From NCBI GenBank assembly GCA_000155435.1, contig DS990263.1, positions 1 through 64,000 of the forward strand: 64,000 nt of DNA, written 5' to 3'. This document shows, in pieces, positions 41,730 through 48,530 of this stretch. The position numbers and the translations under genes are program-made. Positions within the stretch are counted from its first letter, which is position 1; each line of letters begins with the position of its first letter. This stretch comes from Clostridiales bacterium 1_7_47FAA (GTDB taxonomy: Bacteria > Bacillota > Clostridia > Lachnospirales > Lachnospiraceae). The notes beneath the pieces were generated by a model. It was given only the letters and a program-made list of their open reading frames with translations. It was not told the origin of the DNA and searched no databases.

Positions 41730-43136
41730 ATGGATTACAGAAAAGAAATTGAAGGATTTATGGATGCCCACAGGGATGAGATGATTGAGGATATCTGTAC
41801 GCTCTGCAGGATTAACAGCGAGAAGAAACCCTATGTGGAGGGAAAGCCCTATGGGGAGGGAACATTTGAGGCCCTGAATGCAGCACTTACCATGGCTGAG
41901 GGATATGGATTCTCCATCAACAATTATGACAATTATGTGGGGACAGCCGACTTAAATGACAAGGAAAGGCAGTTGGACATCCTGGCCCACCTGGATGTGG
42001 TCCCGGCAGGAGAGGGATGGGTGGAGACAGCGCCCTTTGAACCGGTGGTAAAGGACGGTAAGCTTTACGGACGCGGAACCGCGGATGACAAGGGTCCGGC
42101 GGTGGCAGCGCTTTATGCCATGAGGGCTGTTAAGGAACTGGGAATCCCGCTGTCAAAGAATGTACGCCTGATCCTGGGCACGGATGAGGAGTGCGGAAGC
42201 TCTGACATTGAATACTATTACGGCAGGGAGAAGGAAGCGCCCATGACATTTTCACCGGACGCTGAGTTCCCTGTAATCAACATTGAGAAAGGCCGTCTGG
42301 AGGGACATTTTAACGCATCCTTCCAGGCCTCTGAGGCAGTGCCCAGGCTTGTGAAGGTGGAAGCCGGAATCAAGGCCAACGTGGTCCCAGGCAAGGCAAA
42401 GGCAGTGGTGGAGGGCGTCGACCTTGCAACACTGGAAGGGACTGCCAGGGAAGTGGAAGCAGGGACAGGGGTATCCTTTGGCTTTGAAGGCAATTTCCCT
42501 GTAATACAGATTACGGCCCAGGGTGACGGCGCGCATGCATCCACGCCTCAGGAGGGCAGGAATGCGCTGACCGCACTGCTCTTATACCTGACCCGGCTGC
42601 CTCTTGCGCAGTGCCCGCAGATGGACGCCGTAGGCGCCCTTGTGGAACTGTTCCCTCATGGCGATACCTGCGGAAAGGCTGCCGGCATCGCCATGGAGGA
42701 TGAGCTGTCCGGTTCCCTGACCCTGGCATTCAGCATGCTGACCGTATCCTCAGACAGCCTGGAAGGCGTATTCGACAGCCGCTGCCCAATCTGCTCCAAT
42801 GAGGATAATGTGCTGAAAGCGGTTAAGAAGAACATGGCTGCCAAGGGCCTGACACTGGAAAACGAAACCATGGTCCCGCCTCATCATGTGGATGGCAACT
42901 CCCATTTTGTCAGGACACTTCTGGCCGTATATGAGGAGTACACCGGACTTAAGGGAAGCTGTGAATCCACAGGCGGCGGCACATATGTACATCATCTGGA
43001 GAACGGCGTGGCATTTGGCGCGGCGCTTCCGGGAACCGATAACCATATGCATGGCGCGGATGAGTTTGCGGTTGTGGATGAGCTGCTGGTGAGCGCAAAG
43101 ATATTTGCACAGGTCATCGTGGAGCTGTGCAGCTAG
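41730..43136 (+). CDS. pepV: Dipeptidase PepV-like (M20 family)
   Basis: A 468-residue zinc metallopeptidase. Metal-binding and catalytic motifs are ILAHLDVVPAGEGW (His and Asp near residues 88-90), GRGTADDKGPAVAALYA (bridging Asp), GTDEECGSSD (catalytic Glu and metal ligand) and the C-terminal PGTDNHMHGADEF. PepV-type enzymes release N-terminal residues from dipeptides in the cytoplasm. AAGGAGA precedes the ATG. The TAG stop (43134-43136) lies within the first bases of the adjoining inverted-repeat element, so the native C terminus may have been altered. Confidence 0.92.
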   Translation: MDYRKEIEGFMDAHRDEMIEDICTLCRINSEKKPYVEGKPYGEGTFEALNAALTMAEGYGFSINNYDNYVGTADLNDKERQLDILAHLDVVPAGEGWVETAPFEPVVKDGKLYGRGTADDKGPAVAALYAMRAVKELGIPLSKNVRLILGTDEECGSSDIEYYYGREKEAPMTFSPDAEFPVINIEKGRLEGHFNASFQASEAVPRLVKVEAGIKANVVPGKAKAVVEGVDLATLEGTAREVEAGTGVSFGFEGNFPVIQITAQGDGAHASTPQEGRNALTALLLYLTRLPLAQCPQMDAVGALVELFPHGDTCGKAAGIAMEDELSGSLTLAFSMLTVSSDSLEGVFDSRCPICSNEDNVLKAVKKNMAAKGLTLENETMVPPHHVDGNSHFVRTLLAVYEEYTGLKGSCESTGGGTYVHHLENGVAFGAALPGTDNHMHGADEFAVVDELLVSAKIFAQVIVELCS

Positions 43137-43298: not shown

Positions 43299-43400
43299 TT
43301 TTAAATACTAAAATATATGCATGATCATGACCCCCTTGCTGACTGGATGACTGGACCTGATGACCGGATTGATATGGATTCATGGAAAGGAGAAAGCAGC

Positions 43401-44357
43401 ATGGGCGGTTTAATCGGATTATCGGGACAGCCCTTTAAAGGTATGGAAAACAGCCTTTTGCGGCTGTCCCGTCTGCGTGGTGCGAAGGAAGGAAATCTGC
43501 AGGGGCAGGATGCACTGGGGAAGAAAGCACAGGGGCAGGATGTACTGGGACAGAAAGCACAGGGGCAGGATGTACCGGGACAGAAAGTGCCGGGGCAGAA
43601 AGTAAACGGTGAGATGTCTGAGACAGAAGGCAATGCCCGGACGGACCGGTTCCAGTGGTCCGGGAATAGGGGACTGCCTGAGGATATGCTGTCCGGGAAC
43701 CTGATGGGAAGCAGTGGGAAGACATTGGATGAATCCGCTGTGAAGGCTGGTGTGATCCAGGTTTCTACACAATCATCGTTCCAGGTATCCAAACAGTACG
43801 GCAAGATGGCATCTGCCCGTTCCACCGCCCAGGTACAGCAGGTCATGGGGGATATACAGCAAAGCATCATACGTCTTAAGACAGCAGCGGTATATGGTGA
43901 TGATGAGCAGAGGGTTAAAGCCGCCAGGGCTGTCCGTTCCCTTCAGAAGCTGTTGGGCAGAGGCGGCAGGAAGCTAAGGCGGTTAAACCGGGAAAAGCTG
44001 AAGCAGTGTGCGCAGAAAAAGGCGCAGAAGCAGAGGGAGGAGCGGAAAAGCCGCAGACTGAAGCTGGAATTAAAACGCATGCGTTCGGCTGGAAAAGGAA
44101 GTGATTATACCCTGGTGCAGGAGGGGATGGCGGATGAGGCATATATCCGTGGTTACCGCAGATACAGGATGGCAAGGGATGCATACGGCCAGCCGGTTCC
44201 GGGGACAGGGAACATGACTGCCCCGGTATTGCCCGGCGGCATGGGCAATGGCACTGACAGTGGTATGGGCAGCAGCGTGGGCAGCGGCGTGGCAGCTGAA
44301 AGCGGCGGGGAAATCATTCAGGGAGAGGTTGTGGTTTCCAGCGATTCCTCCTTATAG
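43401..44357 (+). CDS. Uncharacterised GQD-repeat protein
   Basis: I do not recognise this 318-residue protein. Residues 34-68 are a 10-residue tandem repeat (consensus AQGQDVLGQK, three copies plus a part), encoded by a 30-base DNA repeat at 43501-43590. The middle (QVQQVMGDIQQSIIRLKTAA) and a strongly basic Lys/Arg/Gln helix region (about residues 180-235) look like a coiled, possibly nucleic-acid or surface-binding segment. The C terminus is Gly/Met/Ser-rich. There is no signal peptide or membrane segment. GGAGAAAG precedes the ATG at 43401. An upstream ATG at 43317 lacks a site. Confidence 0.6.
   Translation: MGGLIGLSGQPFKGMENSLLRLSRLRGAKEGNLQGQDALGKKAQGQDVLGQKAQGQDVPGQKVPGQKVNGEMSETEGNARTDRFQWSGNRGLPEDMLSGNLMGSSGKTLDESAVKAGVIQVSTQSSFQVSKQYGKMASARSTAQVQQVMGDIQQSIIRLKTAAVYGDDEQRVKAARAVRSLQKLLGRGGRKLRRLNREKLKQCAQKKAQKQREERKSRRLKLELKRMRSAGKGSDYTLVQEGMADEAYIRGYRRYRMARDAYGQPVPGTGNMTAPVLPGGMGNGTDSGMGSSVGSGVAAESGGEIIQGEVVVSSDSSL
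43501..43603 (+). repeat. 30-bp coding tandem repeat
   Basis: Three 30-base units (43501-43530, 43531-43560, 43561-43590) and a partial fourth encode the GQD repeats. The first two differ at only a few positions, so copy number is probably variable between strains. Confidence 0.85.
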
Positions 44358-44398: not shown

Positions 44399-45439
44399 AT
44401 GGAGGATGTAAAGACGGGTATGAAAATGATGAAATTATTGCCGGTACTATTAGCTGCAGCTATTGTCATGACAGCGGCGGCTGGCTGCGGTTCCAGGGAT
44501 GACAGCCAGGCAGTAAAGGAAACTGAGGCAGGGGCTTCGGTCACGTCTTCCCCGGCAGCCAATCCGGCCGGTGGGGCAGGTGATGGATCCGGTGAGGAAG
44601 ATGGGGCTGGGAATGCAGATGCAGCCAATGGGGCAGATAAAGCCGGAGCAACAGATAAAACTGAAACGGAAGATAAGACCAAGGATACGGATCCATCCGG
44701 CCAAACAGGAGAAGGCGGCGCGGAGGAGGCCTACAGCAGGATACCGGATCCTCCCGCATCAGACGGAAGTAAGATACTTTTCGTGGGCAACAGCCATACC
44801 TACACCAATGACCTTCCCGGCATGTTCTATTCAATGGCAGAGGTAGGAGGACACAAGGTAGATGTATACGACCTGACGGAAGGCTACTACACGCTTAAGA
44901 TGTACTCTGATCCTGAGGATGAACTGGGAAGCGTGCTGACGGAAGCGCTTAAGGGTGAAAGCTGGGATTTTGTTGTATTACAGGAGAATACCAATGCCTC
45001 CATTGCCCTCAATGCAAAGAAGGATATGTATCCATACGCCCGCCAACTGGATGGGATGATACAAAAGGCAGGCGGACAGACCGTATTCCTGATGACCTGG
45101 GCGCCAAAGGACGGGGCCGGCGTCCTCAGCCATGAGATGGTACAGACCCAGCTGTCACTGGGATACAGGACCATTGCTGAGGAACTGGATGCACTGCTGA
45201 TTCCCGGTGGGGAAGTATTTGAGGCAGCAAGGAAGCAGGCGGAGGGCCTGGAACTGTGGGGTGAGGACGGACAGCACCCATCGGAGGAAGGCACATATCT
45301 GGCCGCATGCTCGGCTTACGCTCTGCTGTTCCAGGAGTCGCCAGTGGGCAATTCATTTGTGTCGGACCTGGACCAGGCAGTGGCAGGGGAACTGCAGGAA
45401 ATTGCAGATGCTTACATACTGGGTACAAAAAAGTCTTGA
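44399..45439 (+). CDS. SGNH/GDSL-like lipoprotein
   Basis: A 346-residue protein with a lipoprotein signal (lipobox TAAAGC, lipidated C30), a roughly 85-residue Gly/Asp/Thr-rich linker, and a C-terminal domain that resembles SGNH hydrolases. That domain has ILFVGNSHTYTNDLPGMF (block I, Ser132), WDFVVLQENTNAS and EDGQHPSEEGTYLAACSAY (catalytic D290 and H293). An esterase or deacetylase acting on surface glycans or wall is plausible, but the substrate is unknown. An in-frame ATG at 44420 would give a more usual lipoprotein N terminus. The stop overlaps the promoter of the methionine operon. Confidence 0.7.
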   Translation: MEDVKTGMKMMKLLPVLLAAAIVMTAAAGCGSRDDSQAVKETEAGASVTSSPAANPAGGAGDGSGEEDGAGNADAANGADKAGATDKTETEDKTKDTDPSGQTGEGGAEEAYSRIPDPPASDGSKILFVGNSHTYTNDLPGMFYSMAEVGGHKVDVYDLTEGYYTLKMYSDPEDELGSVLTEALKGESWDFVVLQENTNASIALNAKKDMYPYARQLDGMIQKAGGQTVFLMTWAPKDGAGVLSHEMVQTQLSLGYRTIAEELDALLIPGGEVFEAARKQAEGLELWGEDGQHPSEEGTYLAACSAYALLFQESPVGNSFVSDLDQAVAGELQEIADAYILGTKKS

Positions 45440-45464
45440 CAAATGAGTATGAGTGATGTATCTT
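45436..45464 (+). promoter_or_regulatory. Promoter of the methionine transporter operon
   Basis: A perfect -35 TTGACA (45436-45441) and TATCTT (45459-45464) are separated by 17 bases. It overlaps the stop of the upstream gene. The predicted start near 45471 leaves a 300-base leader before metN containing a small reading frame and a terminator. Confidence 0.75.
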
Positions 45465-45518
45465 CTTAACTAAGACAAATCCTAGTTGATTAATAGAGAA
45501 TAAGTACAGGAGGATCTT

Positions 45519-45611
45519 ATGAATCAGTTCAAAGCCATGCAGATGAATATGGATATGATGAACGGCATGTACATGATGATGTGCTGTGTATCCGCATGGG
45601 CAAAAAACTGA
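45519..45611 (+). CDS. Methionine-rich leader peptide (putative)
   Basis: A 30-codon frame with a strong ribosome site (AGGAGGATCTT, 5-6 bases before the ATG) encodes a peptide starting MNQFKAMQMNMDMMNGMYMM. Ten of 30 residues are Met, including a MMM run at residues 19-21 followed by two Cys. It lies between the promoter and a rho-independent terminator upstream of metNIQ, the arrangement of classic amino-acid attenuators. By analogy, ribosome stalling on Met codons when Met-tRNA is short would change RNA folding and let polymerase pass the terminator. The peptide itself has no signal sequence or known domain. Translation is supported by the ribosome site, regulation is inferred. Confidence 0.6.
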   Translation: MNQFKAMQMNMDMMNGMYMMMCCVSAWAKN

Positions 45612-45678
45612 ATGTAAGTTTCATCTGTATGGATTGTGATTAATTGAGATTGAGTTGCATTGAGGAAAATGCTTCGAG

Positions 45679-45711
45679 GCCGCAAGTCCGTGCAGGACGT
45701 GCGGCTTTTTT
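45679..45711 (+). terminator. Attenuator-like terminator before metN
   Basis: GCCGCAAGTCC (45679-45689) pairs with GGACGTGCGGC (45695-45705) with one A-G mismatch and a GTGCA loop, followed by six T (45706-45711). It lies 68 bases after the leader stop and 60 bases before metN, inside the transcript of the operon. A smaller stem (45657-45661 with 45668-45672) precedes it. A CCGCA inside the leader frame (45591-45595) could compete for the 3' arm. Confidence 0.85.
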
Positions 45712-45770
45712 GGAGTGCAGGCGGTCCACAAGGTCAGGATCCAGATGAACGAAAGAAAGGAAATGAAATC

Positions 45771-46787
45771 ATGGAAGAGAACAGAGAAAATCCCATTATC
45801 CGGCTGGAAGGGCTGGGTAAGCAGTTCCAGACATCCGGCGGTCCGGTCACGGCGCTGGAGGATATCAACCTGGAGATACGCTACGGGGAGGTATTTGGAA
45901 TCATCGGACTGTCCGGGGCCGGCAAAAGCACCCTTGTACGCTGCATCAACTATCTGGAGGTGCCCACATCGGGCAAGGTAATATTCGAGGGAGAGAACCT
46001 GTCAGCCATGAAGGACAGGGAGAAGCGCCTGGCAAGACGCTCCATGGGAATGATATTCCAGCAGTTCAACCTTCTGGCCCAGAGGAATGTGCTTCAGAAT
46101 GTGTGCTTCCCGCTGGAGATATCCGGGGTATCCAAATCAGAAGCAAAAAAACGGGCGGAAGAGTTACTGAGGCTGGTGGGGCTTGAGGACAGGATGAAGG
46201 CATATCCGGCCCAGCTCTCAGGCGGCCAGAAGCAGAGGGTGGCGATTGCACGTGCCATGGCCACCAACCCCAAGGTGCTTCTGTGTGACGAGGCAACCAG
46301 CGCCCTGGACCCCAACACCACCAAATCCATCCTGGAACTTCTTAAGAAGATTAACCGGGAAATGGGAATCACGGTGATTGTCATAACCCATGAGATGGCT
46401 GTAATCGAAGCAATCTGCGACAGGGTGGCAATCATTGACCACAGCCATATTGCGGAAGTGGGAAAGGTGTCTGAGATATTCTCAGGACCCAAATCAGATA
46501 TCGGCCGCCAGCTGATTCTGGGGGATGTGGGAGCCCAGGGAACCAGCTTCGGACAGTCCCGGCAGATCCGCATTATCTTTGACGGAAGGGAATCCTCAGA
46601 ACCCGTCATCGCCAACATGGTCCTGGCGTGTAAGGTCCCGGTCAACATCATGCATGCGGACACCAGGGATATCGAAGGAAAAGCCATGGGCCAGATGATC
46701 ATCCAGCTGCCGGAGGACGAGACGGACGCCGGAAGGATCTGTAACTATTTAAAGACAGCCCACGTGGCATTTGAGGAGGTGCGTTAA
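45771..46787 (+). CDS. metN: Methionine ABC transporter ATP-binding protein
   Basis: A 338-residue ATPase. Walker A is GLSGAGKSTLVRCINYLE, the ABC signature is QLSGGQKQRVAIARAMA and Walker B is VLLCDEATSALDP. After about residue 240 a C-terminal NIL-type domain (IRIIFDGRESSEPVIANMVL) binds methionine and inhibits transport, the hallmark of MetN. I chose the ATG at 45771, 9 bases after AAAGGA. The frame is open further upstream across the terminator, where there is no ribosome site. Confidence 0.94.
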   Translation: MEENRENPIIRLEGLGKQFQTSGGPVTALEDINLEIRYGEVFGIIGLSGAGKSTLVRCINYLEVPTSGKVIFEGENLSAMKDREKRLARRSMGMIFQQFNLLAQRNVLQNVCFPLEISGVSKSEAKKRAEELLRLVGLEDRMKAYPAQLSGGQKQRVAIARAMATNPKVLLCDEATSALDPNTTKSILELLKKINREMGITVIVITHEMAVIEAICDRVAIIDHSHIAEVGKVSEIFSGPKSDIGRQLILGDVGAQGTSFGQSRQIRIIFDGRESSEPVIANMVLACKVPVNIMHADTRDIEGKAMGQMIIQLPEDETDAGRICNYLKTAHVAFEEVR

Positions 46788-46788
46788 G

Positions 46789-47454
46789 ATGCAGTTTGAT
46801 TCAACAACCATTAACATGCTCATAAAGGGAATTGGGGAAACATTCTATATGGTGCTGCTGTCCTCTGCCCTGTCCTATATCATAGGCATTCCGCTGGGAA
46901 TTGCACTGGTCGTCACGGACAAGGACGGAATCAGCCCGGTTCCTGTTTTCAACAAGGTTCTTGGAGTGGTAATCAACCTTCTGCGTTCCGTGCCTTTCAT
47001 CATCCTGTTAATCATGGTAATCCCCATCACCAGGCTGATTGTAGGTAAGATATATGGCTCCAACGCAACCGTTGTCCCGCTGGTGATTTCAGCATCCCCT
47101 TATATTGCGCGCATGGTGGAGTCTTCCCTGAAGGAAGTGGATGCAGGCGTCATCGAGGCGGCCAAGTCCATGGGGGCCTCCACCTGGCAGATCATCGTGA
47201 AAGTCCTGCTGCCGGAGGCAAAGCCGTCCCTGTTGGTAGGGGCAGCCATTTCCGTGACAACAATCTTAGGATATTCTGCCATGGCGGGATTTACCGGCGG
47301 CGGCGGACTGGGAGATATCGCTATCCGCTATGGTTACCATCGGTACCAAACGGATATGATGCTGGTGACCGTAGTGCTTTTGGTCATCATCGTACAGCTG
47401 ATTCAGGAGATATTCATGCGCATGTCCAGGAGAAGCGACAAGAGGATCCGATAG
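46789..47454 (+). CDS. metI: Methionine ABC transporter permease
   Basis: A 221-residue MetI-type permease with five hydrophobic segments and the EAA loop (VDAGVIEAAKSMGASTWQIIVKVLLPEAKP reduced to its core AAKSMGAS). GFTGGGGLGDIAIRYGYHRY is characteristic of MetI. It starts one base after the metN stop, with GAGGAGGTG inside the metN end as ribosome site. Confidence 0.94.
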   Translation: MQFDSTTINMLIKGIGETFYMVLLSSALSYIIGIPLGIALVVTDKDGISPVPVFNKVLGVVINLLRSVPFIILLIMVIPITRLIVGKIYGSNATVVPLVISASPYIARMVESSLKEVDAGVIEAAKSMGASTWQIIVKVLLPEAKPSLLVGAAISVTTILGYSAMAGFTGGGGLGDIAIRYGYHRYQTDMMLVTVVLLVIIVQLIQEIFMRMSRRSDKRIR

Positions 47455-47600: not shown

Positions 47601-48530
47601 ATGAAGAAGAGAGTATTAGGCGCAGCCGTACTGGCTGCAGCACTGGCAGCAGGGGCACTTACCGCCTGCTCAGGAACTGCAAAGGAAACCACGGCAGCTG
47701 AGACAGCGGCAGGGACATCAGCAGAAACAACAGCAGCCGGAGCAGACGCGCAAACCACTGAGGCAGGTTCTGAAGCAGCAGATACCACAGCTGCCGCGAA
47801 TCTACAGAAAATCATTGTAGGCGCAAGCCCTGCACCCCATGCTGAGATCCTGAATGCAGCCAAGGAAGTGCTGGCATCCAAGGGTTATGAGCTGGAAATC
47901 GTTGAATACACGGACTATGTACAGCCGAACAACGCACTGGACACAGGCGACCTGGATGCAAACTATTTCCAGCATAAGCCATACCTGGATTCCTTCAATG
48001 CACAGAACGGAACCAAGTTAGTCAGCGCAGGAGCCATCCACTATGAGCCGTTCGGCATCTATGGCGGAAAGGTGTCTTCCCTGGATGAACTGCAGGACAA
48101 GGCAGCCGTGCTGGTACCTAATGATGTGAGCAATGAGGCAAGGGCGCTTTTACTTCTGGAAGCCCAGGGCTTAATCAAGCTGAAAGAGGGCGTGGGCCTG
48201 GAAGCAACCAGGAATGACATTGTGGAGAACCCGAAGAATCTGGAAATCGTGGAGATGGAGGCGGCGCAGCTTCCCCGTTCCCTTCCGGATGCGGATATTG
48301 CTGTCATCAACGGCAACTACGCAATTGAAGCAGGGCTTAAGGTAAGCGATGCACTGGCAACCGAAGACTCCCAGTCCCTGGCAGCAACCACTTATGGAAA
48401 CATTGTGGCTGTAAAAGAAGGCGAGGAAAACAGCGATGCCATCAAGGCGCTGGTAGAGGCGCTGACCAGCCCGGAGGTAAAGCAGTTCATGGAGGAGAGA
48501 TACGAAGGGGCAGTTGTTCCTCTGTTCTAA
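47601..48530 (+). CDS. metQ: Methionine-binding lipoprotein MetQ
   Basis: A 309-residue NlpA/MetQ lipoprotein. The signal peptide ends in the lipobox ALTAC (lipidated C23). A 45-residue Thr/Ala/Glu linker leads to the fold: KIIVGASPAPHAEILNAAKEVLASKG, ELEIVEYTDYVQPNNALDTGDLDANYFQHKPYLD, and NGNYAIEAGLKVSDAL near the end (quoted in parts). These are standard MetQ motifs. GAGGAGGAAA precedes the ATG. Confidence 0.93.
   Translation: MKKRVLGAAVLAAALAAGALTACSGTAKETTAAETAAGTSAETTAAGADAQTTEAGSEAADTTAAANLQKIIVGASPAPHAEILNAAKEVLASKGYELEIVEYTDYVQPNNALDTGDLDANYFQHKPYLDSFNAQNGTKLVSAGAIHYEPFGIYGGKVSSLDELQDKAAVLVPNDVSNEARALLLLEAQGLIKLKEGVGLEATRNDIVENPKNLEIVEMEAAQLPRSLPDADIAVINGNYAIEAGLKVSDALATEDSQSLAATTYGNIVAVKEGEENSDAIKALVEALTSPEVKQFMEERYEGAVVPLF

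Follow-up and report, generated by a model that had tools for sequence, protein, structure and literature searches.

In the trp, his and leu attenuators of proteobacteria a short leader frame precedes RNA segments that can form alternative 1:2, 2:3 and 3:4 helices, and the outcome is held to be decided during transcription. Among the usual RNA controls on Firmicutes methionine genes is one of another kind, the S-adenosylmethionine (SAM) riboswitch RF00162, which senses SAM rather than charged methionine tRNA (Met-tRNA). Here we describe a leader upstream of the methionine transporter operon metNIQ in Clostridiales bacterium 1_7_47FAA (Lachnospiraceae), found in a 64,000-nucleotide stretch of contig DS990263.1 that we call the window. 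Judged by sequence comparison and RNA modelling, this leader is very probably a ribosome-mediated transcription attenuator of metNIQ that senses Met-tRNA charging. All features placed below lie on the + strand of the window.

The closest described system is the metL leader before metNIQ of Streptomyces lividans TK24, listed as an attenuator in 2021 (PMC8079986). Like the window leader, metL stands before metNIQ and encodes a peptide containing Met codons. Its peptide, MSTTSDRTPATEATTTPGARCMCRRMCAF, has three Met including the start, is leaderless and belongs to another phylum, and its authors state that a typical Rho-independent terminator is missing (PMC8079986), whereas the window leader has ten Met codons, a Shine-Dalgarno (SD) site, a terminator, an antiterminator complement and a hairpin within the frame, termed H1. 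An earlier note on this DNA had called a Met-codon leader on a methionine transporter a new solution. That claim has to be toned down, as a Met leader before metNIQ had already been listed, although the listed one holds fewer Met codons and lacks a clear terminator.

Like the window leader, classical attenuators have a frame enriched for the amino acid under control, and their 1:2, 2:3 and 3:4 alternatives have predicted counterparts in it (for his, PMC9413887); the window leader differs in its amino acid, methionine, in its target, a transporter, and in the extra covarying hairpin inside the frame. For Firmicutes His genes, ribosome-mediated attenuators that alternate with T-boxes on one kind of gene have been proposed (PMC9413887, PMC2965389); we report such an alternation below for metN, whereas these concern histidine genes and other lineages. 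Attenuators of branched-chain amino acid genes have likewise been proposed in Firmicutes (PMC5794164, PMC5864092). In Rhodobacterales, the Cys codons of uORFC-8-2 before cysS are proposed to sense tRNA and permit read-through; this too would be tRNA sensing for a sulfur amino acid, differing in the amino acid (cysteine), the gene (a tRNA synthetase) and the lineage (alphaproteobacteria) (PMC8632094). A 2005 survey of Actinobacteria reports that methionine operons are preceded by no conserved RNA structure (PMC1262725). In open-licence PMC papers, a scope outside which most subscription papers lie, we found no methionine leader-peptide attenuator besides the S. lividans listing, and no description of a Met attenuator with both terminator and antiterminator. 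Together the comparisons indicate that the design is already known and that the amino acid, the lineage and H1 are new, the function being the predicted part.

A conserved methionine-rich frame before metN

The leader frame (45519-45611 including the stop) has 30 codons and encodes MNQFKAMQMNMDMMNGMYMMMCCVSAWAKN, with Met at positions 1, 7, 9, 11, 13, 14, 17, 19, 20 and 21, that is, ten Met including one triple. It is preceded by the SD sequence AGGAGG (45508-45513), 5 nucleotides (nt) 5' of the ATG, and by a sigma-70-type promoter consisting of TTGACA (45436-45441), a 17-nt spacer and TATCTT (45459-45464). An intrinsic terminator, a hairpin with a T-run (45677-45711), separates the frame from metN, whose ATG stands at 45771. 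Promoter, SD site, Met-rich frame, terminator and metN were each read where the earlier note had placed them. These are the hallmarks of an attenuator: a short frame with SD site, start and stop 5' of an operon, and an intrinsic terminator before the first gene. The promoter pattern is at chance level in the window alone (1 seen vs 0.8 expected); among the loci described next, a promoter-like pair lies 5' of the leader in 63 of the 66 with enough sequence, compared with 366 of 3300 base shuffles (L140 and L141, with too short an upstream sequence, were omitted).

Conservation in relatives was among the checks that the earlier note had set beforehand, and the Met-rich frame is widely kept. Our MetN-based census covered the best 80 of 515 named loci, i.e. 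only the nearest MetN relatives, of which 78 were readable (L108 and L137, with fewer than 240 bases upstream, were omitted). In 68 of these 78 metN upstream regions an SD site precedes a frame holding 4 or more internal Met; a first pass had found 65 leader loci and a wider search added 3, matching the fixed-rule count. By chance such frames appear in 80 of 3900 dinucleotide shuffles and in 29 of 1592 control pieces taken from elsewhere in these loci (about 2%), and frames with at least 6 internal Met in 3 of 3900 shuffles and in none of 1592 control pieces. Leaders in the 68 loci carry between 4 and 12 internal Met (median 9) at a median length of 31 codons, an enrichment that fits the cargo of the MetNIQ-like operon downstream. 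Several columns that fall neither in segment 1 nor in the H1 arms, both defined below, also keep Met (column 14 in 63 of 68 loci, column 16 in 50, column 17 in 58 and column 27 in 67), while the columns between the kept ones drift. The number of Met stays up while the remainder of the peptide changes.

Within the genus (Enterocloster), all 17 genomes gave some match at E <= 1 and 15 of them contain an intact leader; the weak matches L016-L019 were judged by eye and dropped. The genus alignment keeps an SD-like site at the leader position, and insertions and deletions in the frame comprise 3 or 6 bases, the sole exception being L007, which lost one base near the frame end so that the stop is displaced. 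Of 299 family genomes, 11 matched the peptide profile at E <= 0.01, two of these matches (L028, L029) being taken as chance by eye. A covariance model running from segment 2 to the terminator matched 21 of 299 family genomes at E <= 0.1, with metN downstream in 15; six matches with no metN in the locus (L060, L062-L066) were taken as chance, and L054 has metN downstream and no Met-rich frame. An order-wide profile search hit 9 of 392 genomes, every one in the same family, and a phylum-wide search hit 1 of 398, the source genome itself. Within the samples searched, with a profile that may overlook divergent leaders, the leader appears to be confined to one family, the Lachnospiraceae. Every one of the 32 peptide-search loci judged real has metN downstream (28 distinct places, as L020, L147, L154 and L155 duplicate others).

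The operon itself was assigned with NCBIfam and Pfam. It comprises metN (45771-46787), an ABC ATPase with a NIL domain; the permease gene metI (46771-47454), listed from a TTG and probably starting at a later ATG; and metQ (47601-48530), which encodes an NlpA-type substrate-binding lipoprotein. The best NCBIfam models of the three proteins are MetN, MetI and MetQ, all under the curated cut-offs, and Pfam places ABC_tran and NIL (MetN), BPD_transp_1 (MetI) and Lipoprotein_9 (MetQ) above its cut-offs.

Ten census loci have no leader: in four metN follows a T-box, in two a dipeptidase-like frame, in two the close end of another gene (L074 and L075, by eye), and two have a hairpin only. In the dipeptidase pair (L138, L144, by eye) metN comes directly after the frame, which resembles a PepV-type dipeptidase gene of the window (41730-43136) near metNIQ. 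The hairpin pair (L083, L129) shows a terminator-like hairpin 5' of metN with no Met-rich frame, possibly decayed attenuators. Between the PepV-type gene and the leader, the window also holds a frame with short LGQKAQGQDV-like repeats (43317-44357), with no NCBIfam match at 1e-5 and no Pfam match at 0.001. Two further repeats were seen near the promoter. An imperfect CCTA...TAGG inverted repeat lies between promoter and SD site (about 45480-45502) and recurs in the 5' untranslated region of 26 of the 68 loci (e.g. L071, L099, L118), where it may form a 5' hairpin. In 23 of 66 loci, L099 and L103 among them, the palindrome GCGTANAATACG, a candidate operator, overlaps with the -10 element ahead of the leader; it was not seen in the window.

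Predicted alternative helices and a hairpin inside the frame

The earlier note held that some intermediate RNA structure was needed to connect the Met cluster with the distant terminator. Segment 2 (45619-45638) supplies it, being complementary both to the Met-codon segment and to the terminator 5' arm. Segment 1 (45535-45548) spans codons 6-10 with Met7 and Met9 and keeps a conserved register against segment 2; segment 3 (45681-45695) is the 5' arm and loop of the terminator (3:4) and forms 14 pairs with 45625-45638, the predicted antiterminator. Segments 1 and 3 would compete for segment 2 through mutually exclusive complementarities, each in one register. The leader RNA folds more stably than its own shuffles (z -4.86).

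We aligned the structure in 53 of the 68 leader loci, the main group. L115 was dropped as an identical row, and 14 further loci (L082, L122, L124, L126, L128, L130-L132, L139-L143 and L146) have another, or no clear, segment 2. All 65 first-called loci have a terminator hairpin after the frame: an automatic finder returned one for 62 of them (5 of these calls were wrong and another 5 had to be trimmed), and for 3 it was chosen by eye. The 3 loci added later also have a terminator hairpin, and at least 3 T follow the hairpin in 67 of 68 loci. In the 53 sequences 95.2% of terminator cells are paired and 7 of 11 pairs show two-sided change, a level reached in 0 of 500 shuffles. The antiterminator 2:3 pairs in 87.7% of cells as opposed to 24-50% in slid registers, and 1:2 in 85.9% as opposed to 29-62% (50 sequences). 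The earlier note had suggested a search for compensatory changes in both stems; these are present in the terminator, and are lacking in the antiterminator of the main group. Segment 2 may be conserved instead of covarying because it possibly serves two partners.

A swap of partners between two groups of loci gave further support for 2:3. In the main group, segments 2 and 3 of one and the same locus pair with a median of -16.7 kcal/mol, compared with -8.5 kcal/mol when the partner comes from the other group, and 52 of 53 loci beat the foreign median. A sister group of 10 loci carries a different segment 2 (GGTCTTGTAGGGA... or GGTCTTATAGGGA...) with its own matching segment 3; here the medians are -17.4 and -15.0 kcal/mol, and 9 of 10 loci beat the foreign median. 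An antiterminator that uses the terminator 5' arm is therefore supported by complementarity, register and the swap across groups, and not by two-sided change in the main group.

A second covarying element lies within the coding frame. Hairpin H1 joins codons 15-17 (5' arm, 45562-45567) to codons 22-23 (3' arm, 45582-45587), with codons 17-21 between the arms. In 64 distinct frames out of 68, compared with shuffles that ignore relatedness, 96.1% of H1 cells are paired vs 90.2 after shuffling and 31 cells show two-sided change vs 10.1, both reached in 0 of 1000 shuffles; 4 of 6 pairs show two-sided change, which 57 of 1000 shuffles reach. Slid registers pair at 17-59%. Matched combinations in the two arms include Asn-Gly with Cys-Arg(CGT), Ser-Gly with Cys-Arg(CGC), Asn-Ser with Cys-Cys, Asn-Asp with Cys(TGT)-Arg, Lys-Gly with Cys-Pro and Phe-Gly with Cys-Arg(CGA). 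Many combinations contain G-U pairs, and a mismatch occurs in a small number of frames, e.g. where Cys-Gly faces Cys-Gly or Cys-Ser. The probable role of H1 is to pause polymerase or ribosome.

A second signal carried by Cys codons was also considered. Cys22 is present in 68 of 68 loci, but it belongs to the H1 3' arm, and its pairing with a codon 16 ending in C and the ATG of codon 17 demands TG as the first two bases of codon 22. Cys sensing is possible but not required; column 33 is Cys in 51 of 68 loci.

Cys22 also bears on an alternative in which a TnaC-like nascent peptide arrests the ribosome, the Met-rich peptide stalling it on free methionine or SAM rather than on a shortage of Met-tRNA. 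Conservation of certain non-Met residues such as Cys22 would suit such an arrest; residues 15, 16, 22 and 23, however, are encoded by the H1 arms and frequently change along with their RNA partners, and it is the Met count that is kept while other residues drift. A stall on excess Met would, moreover, be expected to boost the importer when it is unneeded. We regard nascent-peptide arrest as improbable.

Equally improbable is a new metabolite-binding riboswitch that overlaps an incidental frame, although the conserved, covarying structures (terminator and H1) and the strong fold would agree with one. The SD site and start are kept, length changes are multiples of three except near the end of L007, and Met is conserved at codons outside the helices, all of which speak against it. 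As the earlier note had observed, no riboswitch or T-box is recognised: no Rfam family reached the gathering score in the window, where at E <= 5 only five weak matches to eukaryotic snoRNA and lncRNA families appear, far under that score, and neither a T-box nor a SAM riboswitch reached it in any of the 68 leader loci. At that score the Rfam matches in those loci, none of them to the leader itself, are tRNA genes (L086, L121) and one Clostridiales-1 RNA (RF01699), which in L146 stands between the Met leader and metN (2767-2938).

Less probable still is a functional small protein rich in Met and Cys, e.g. a metal-binding peptide, followed by an ordinary terminator. The peptide is conserved and has at least 2 Cys in 68 of 68 loci, as such a protein might; yet metN stands behind all the peptide-search loci judged real, segment 2 matches the terminator 5' arm, residues 15, 16, 22 and 23 track RNA pairing, and no Pfam family matched the peptide. 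A chance Met-rich frame, for which we found nothing, can practically be dismissed given its occurrence in 68 of 78 regions, when shuffles and control pieces yield about 2%.

Predicted attenuation and a modelled ribosome stall

From these elements we infer translation, stalling, switching, a response to methionine and a role for H1, and propose that the attenuator would work as follows. When Met-tRNA is ample, the ribosome would cross the Met codons and depart, and segment 1 would pair with segment 2; segment 3 would then be free, the terminator 3:4 would fold and metNIQ would be off. When Met-tRNA is scarce, the ribosome would stall at an early Met codon (7-14) and cover segment 1, so that 2:3 would form on the terminator 5' arm and polymerase would continue into metNIQ.

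We modelled the stall by masking the ribosome at Met codons on transcripts ending at segment 3 (53 loci, 52 for Met9), with an assumed footprint from -14 to +15 relative to the P-site codon. A ribosome at Met7, 9, 11, 13 or 14 hides segment 1 fully or partly. With masks from Met7 to Met14 the mean probability of 1:2, P(1:2), fell from 0.43 to 0.00-0.06 and mean P(2:3) rose from 0.23 to 0.45-0.53; with the mask at Met17, Met21 or the stop, mean P(2:3) was 0.34, 0.24 and 0.24. In the window, P(1:2) was 0.69 without a ribosome, 0 at Met7-14 and 0.84 at the stop, while P(2:3) was 0.08 without a ribosome, 0.25-0.39 at Met7-14 and 0.00 at the stop. The modelled switch is partial.

Several results weigh against the attenuator. 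A stall at Met17-21 would not cover segment 1. In the model, 29-34 of 52-53 loci have P(2:3) above 0.5 with an early stall, 15 already do so with no ribosome, and P(1:2) without a ribosome is above 0.5 in 25 of 53 loci. When the terminator 3' arm is added, the terminator dominates under every mask (mean P(3:4) 0.80-0.89); as it wins at equilibrium throughout, the switch would have to be kinetic, set during transcription. A longer window RNA without a ribosome gives P(1:2) of 0.06, with another upstream fold and the terminator still formed, and L067, whose peptide is identical to that of the window, shows no switch in the model. Among the helices, 2:3 has neither two-sided change nor an excess over shuffles within the main group (53 sequences), and 1:2 has no covariation excess there (50 loci); in single sequences, the loci where no more than 10 of 200 shuffles equalled the real pairing number only 26 of 65 (2:3) and 31 of 65 (1:2). 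A 1:2 helix is not clear in the sister group, only 1 of its 10 loci beats every foreign partner in the swap, and L077 pairs better with one foreign partner than with its own. Two of the 17 genus genomes have weak matches only (E 0.27 and 0.35), with a stop inside the frame. Finally, severe Met starvation would lower initiator tRNA as well.

A probable exchange with the T-box and its meaning

In four census loci (L127, L133, L135, L145) a T-box stands 5' of metN in place of the Met-rich leader. The gene is the same and its MetN closely related, but in a T-box the tRNA binds the RNA directly and there is no Met-rich frame. GAACAUGG lies near what we take to be the specifier position of these four T-boxes, which presumably sense charging of tRNA-Met. 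Elsewhere the genome of the window contains one SAM riboswitch (RF00162), followed by a frame that we take to be metK, and 11 T-box matches; the lineage thus possesses both kinds of regulator without employing them here.

On the MetN tree, rooted by midpoint only, the four T-box genes cluster with one truncated row (97/76), and this cluster plus L138 stands beside the ten sister-group genes that bear the leader (joint branch 100/98). On the tree the leader label requires 6 changes, at least 5 of them forced by starred branches, compared with 11.3 for shuffled labels. Leader and T-box have thus probably replaced each other at least once, in either direction. A few metagenome-assembled genomes are titled with other families, e.g. 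Paenibacillaceae (L103, L113, L115), yet their MetN groups with Lacrimispora.

On balance, though by a modest degree, we favour a fuller account in which a complete Met attenuator is special to one family of gut bacteria and has been exchanged with a T-box on the same transporter gene; its leader peptide would be partly dictated by H1, acting as a pause or roadblock, and its many Met codons would let it fire before initiator Met-tRNA runs short. Methionine is perhaps the least expected amino acid for a leader-peptide sensor, because nearly every frame starts with Met. Two sensors of tRNA charging, the T-box and the translating ribosome, appear to interchange on one gene in close gut relatives, which turns the origin of such switches into a testable question. 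The leader also flags a probably regulated methionine importer in many species of the human and animal gut.

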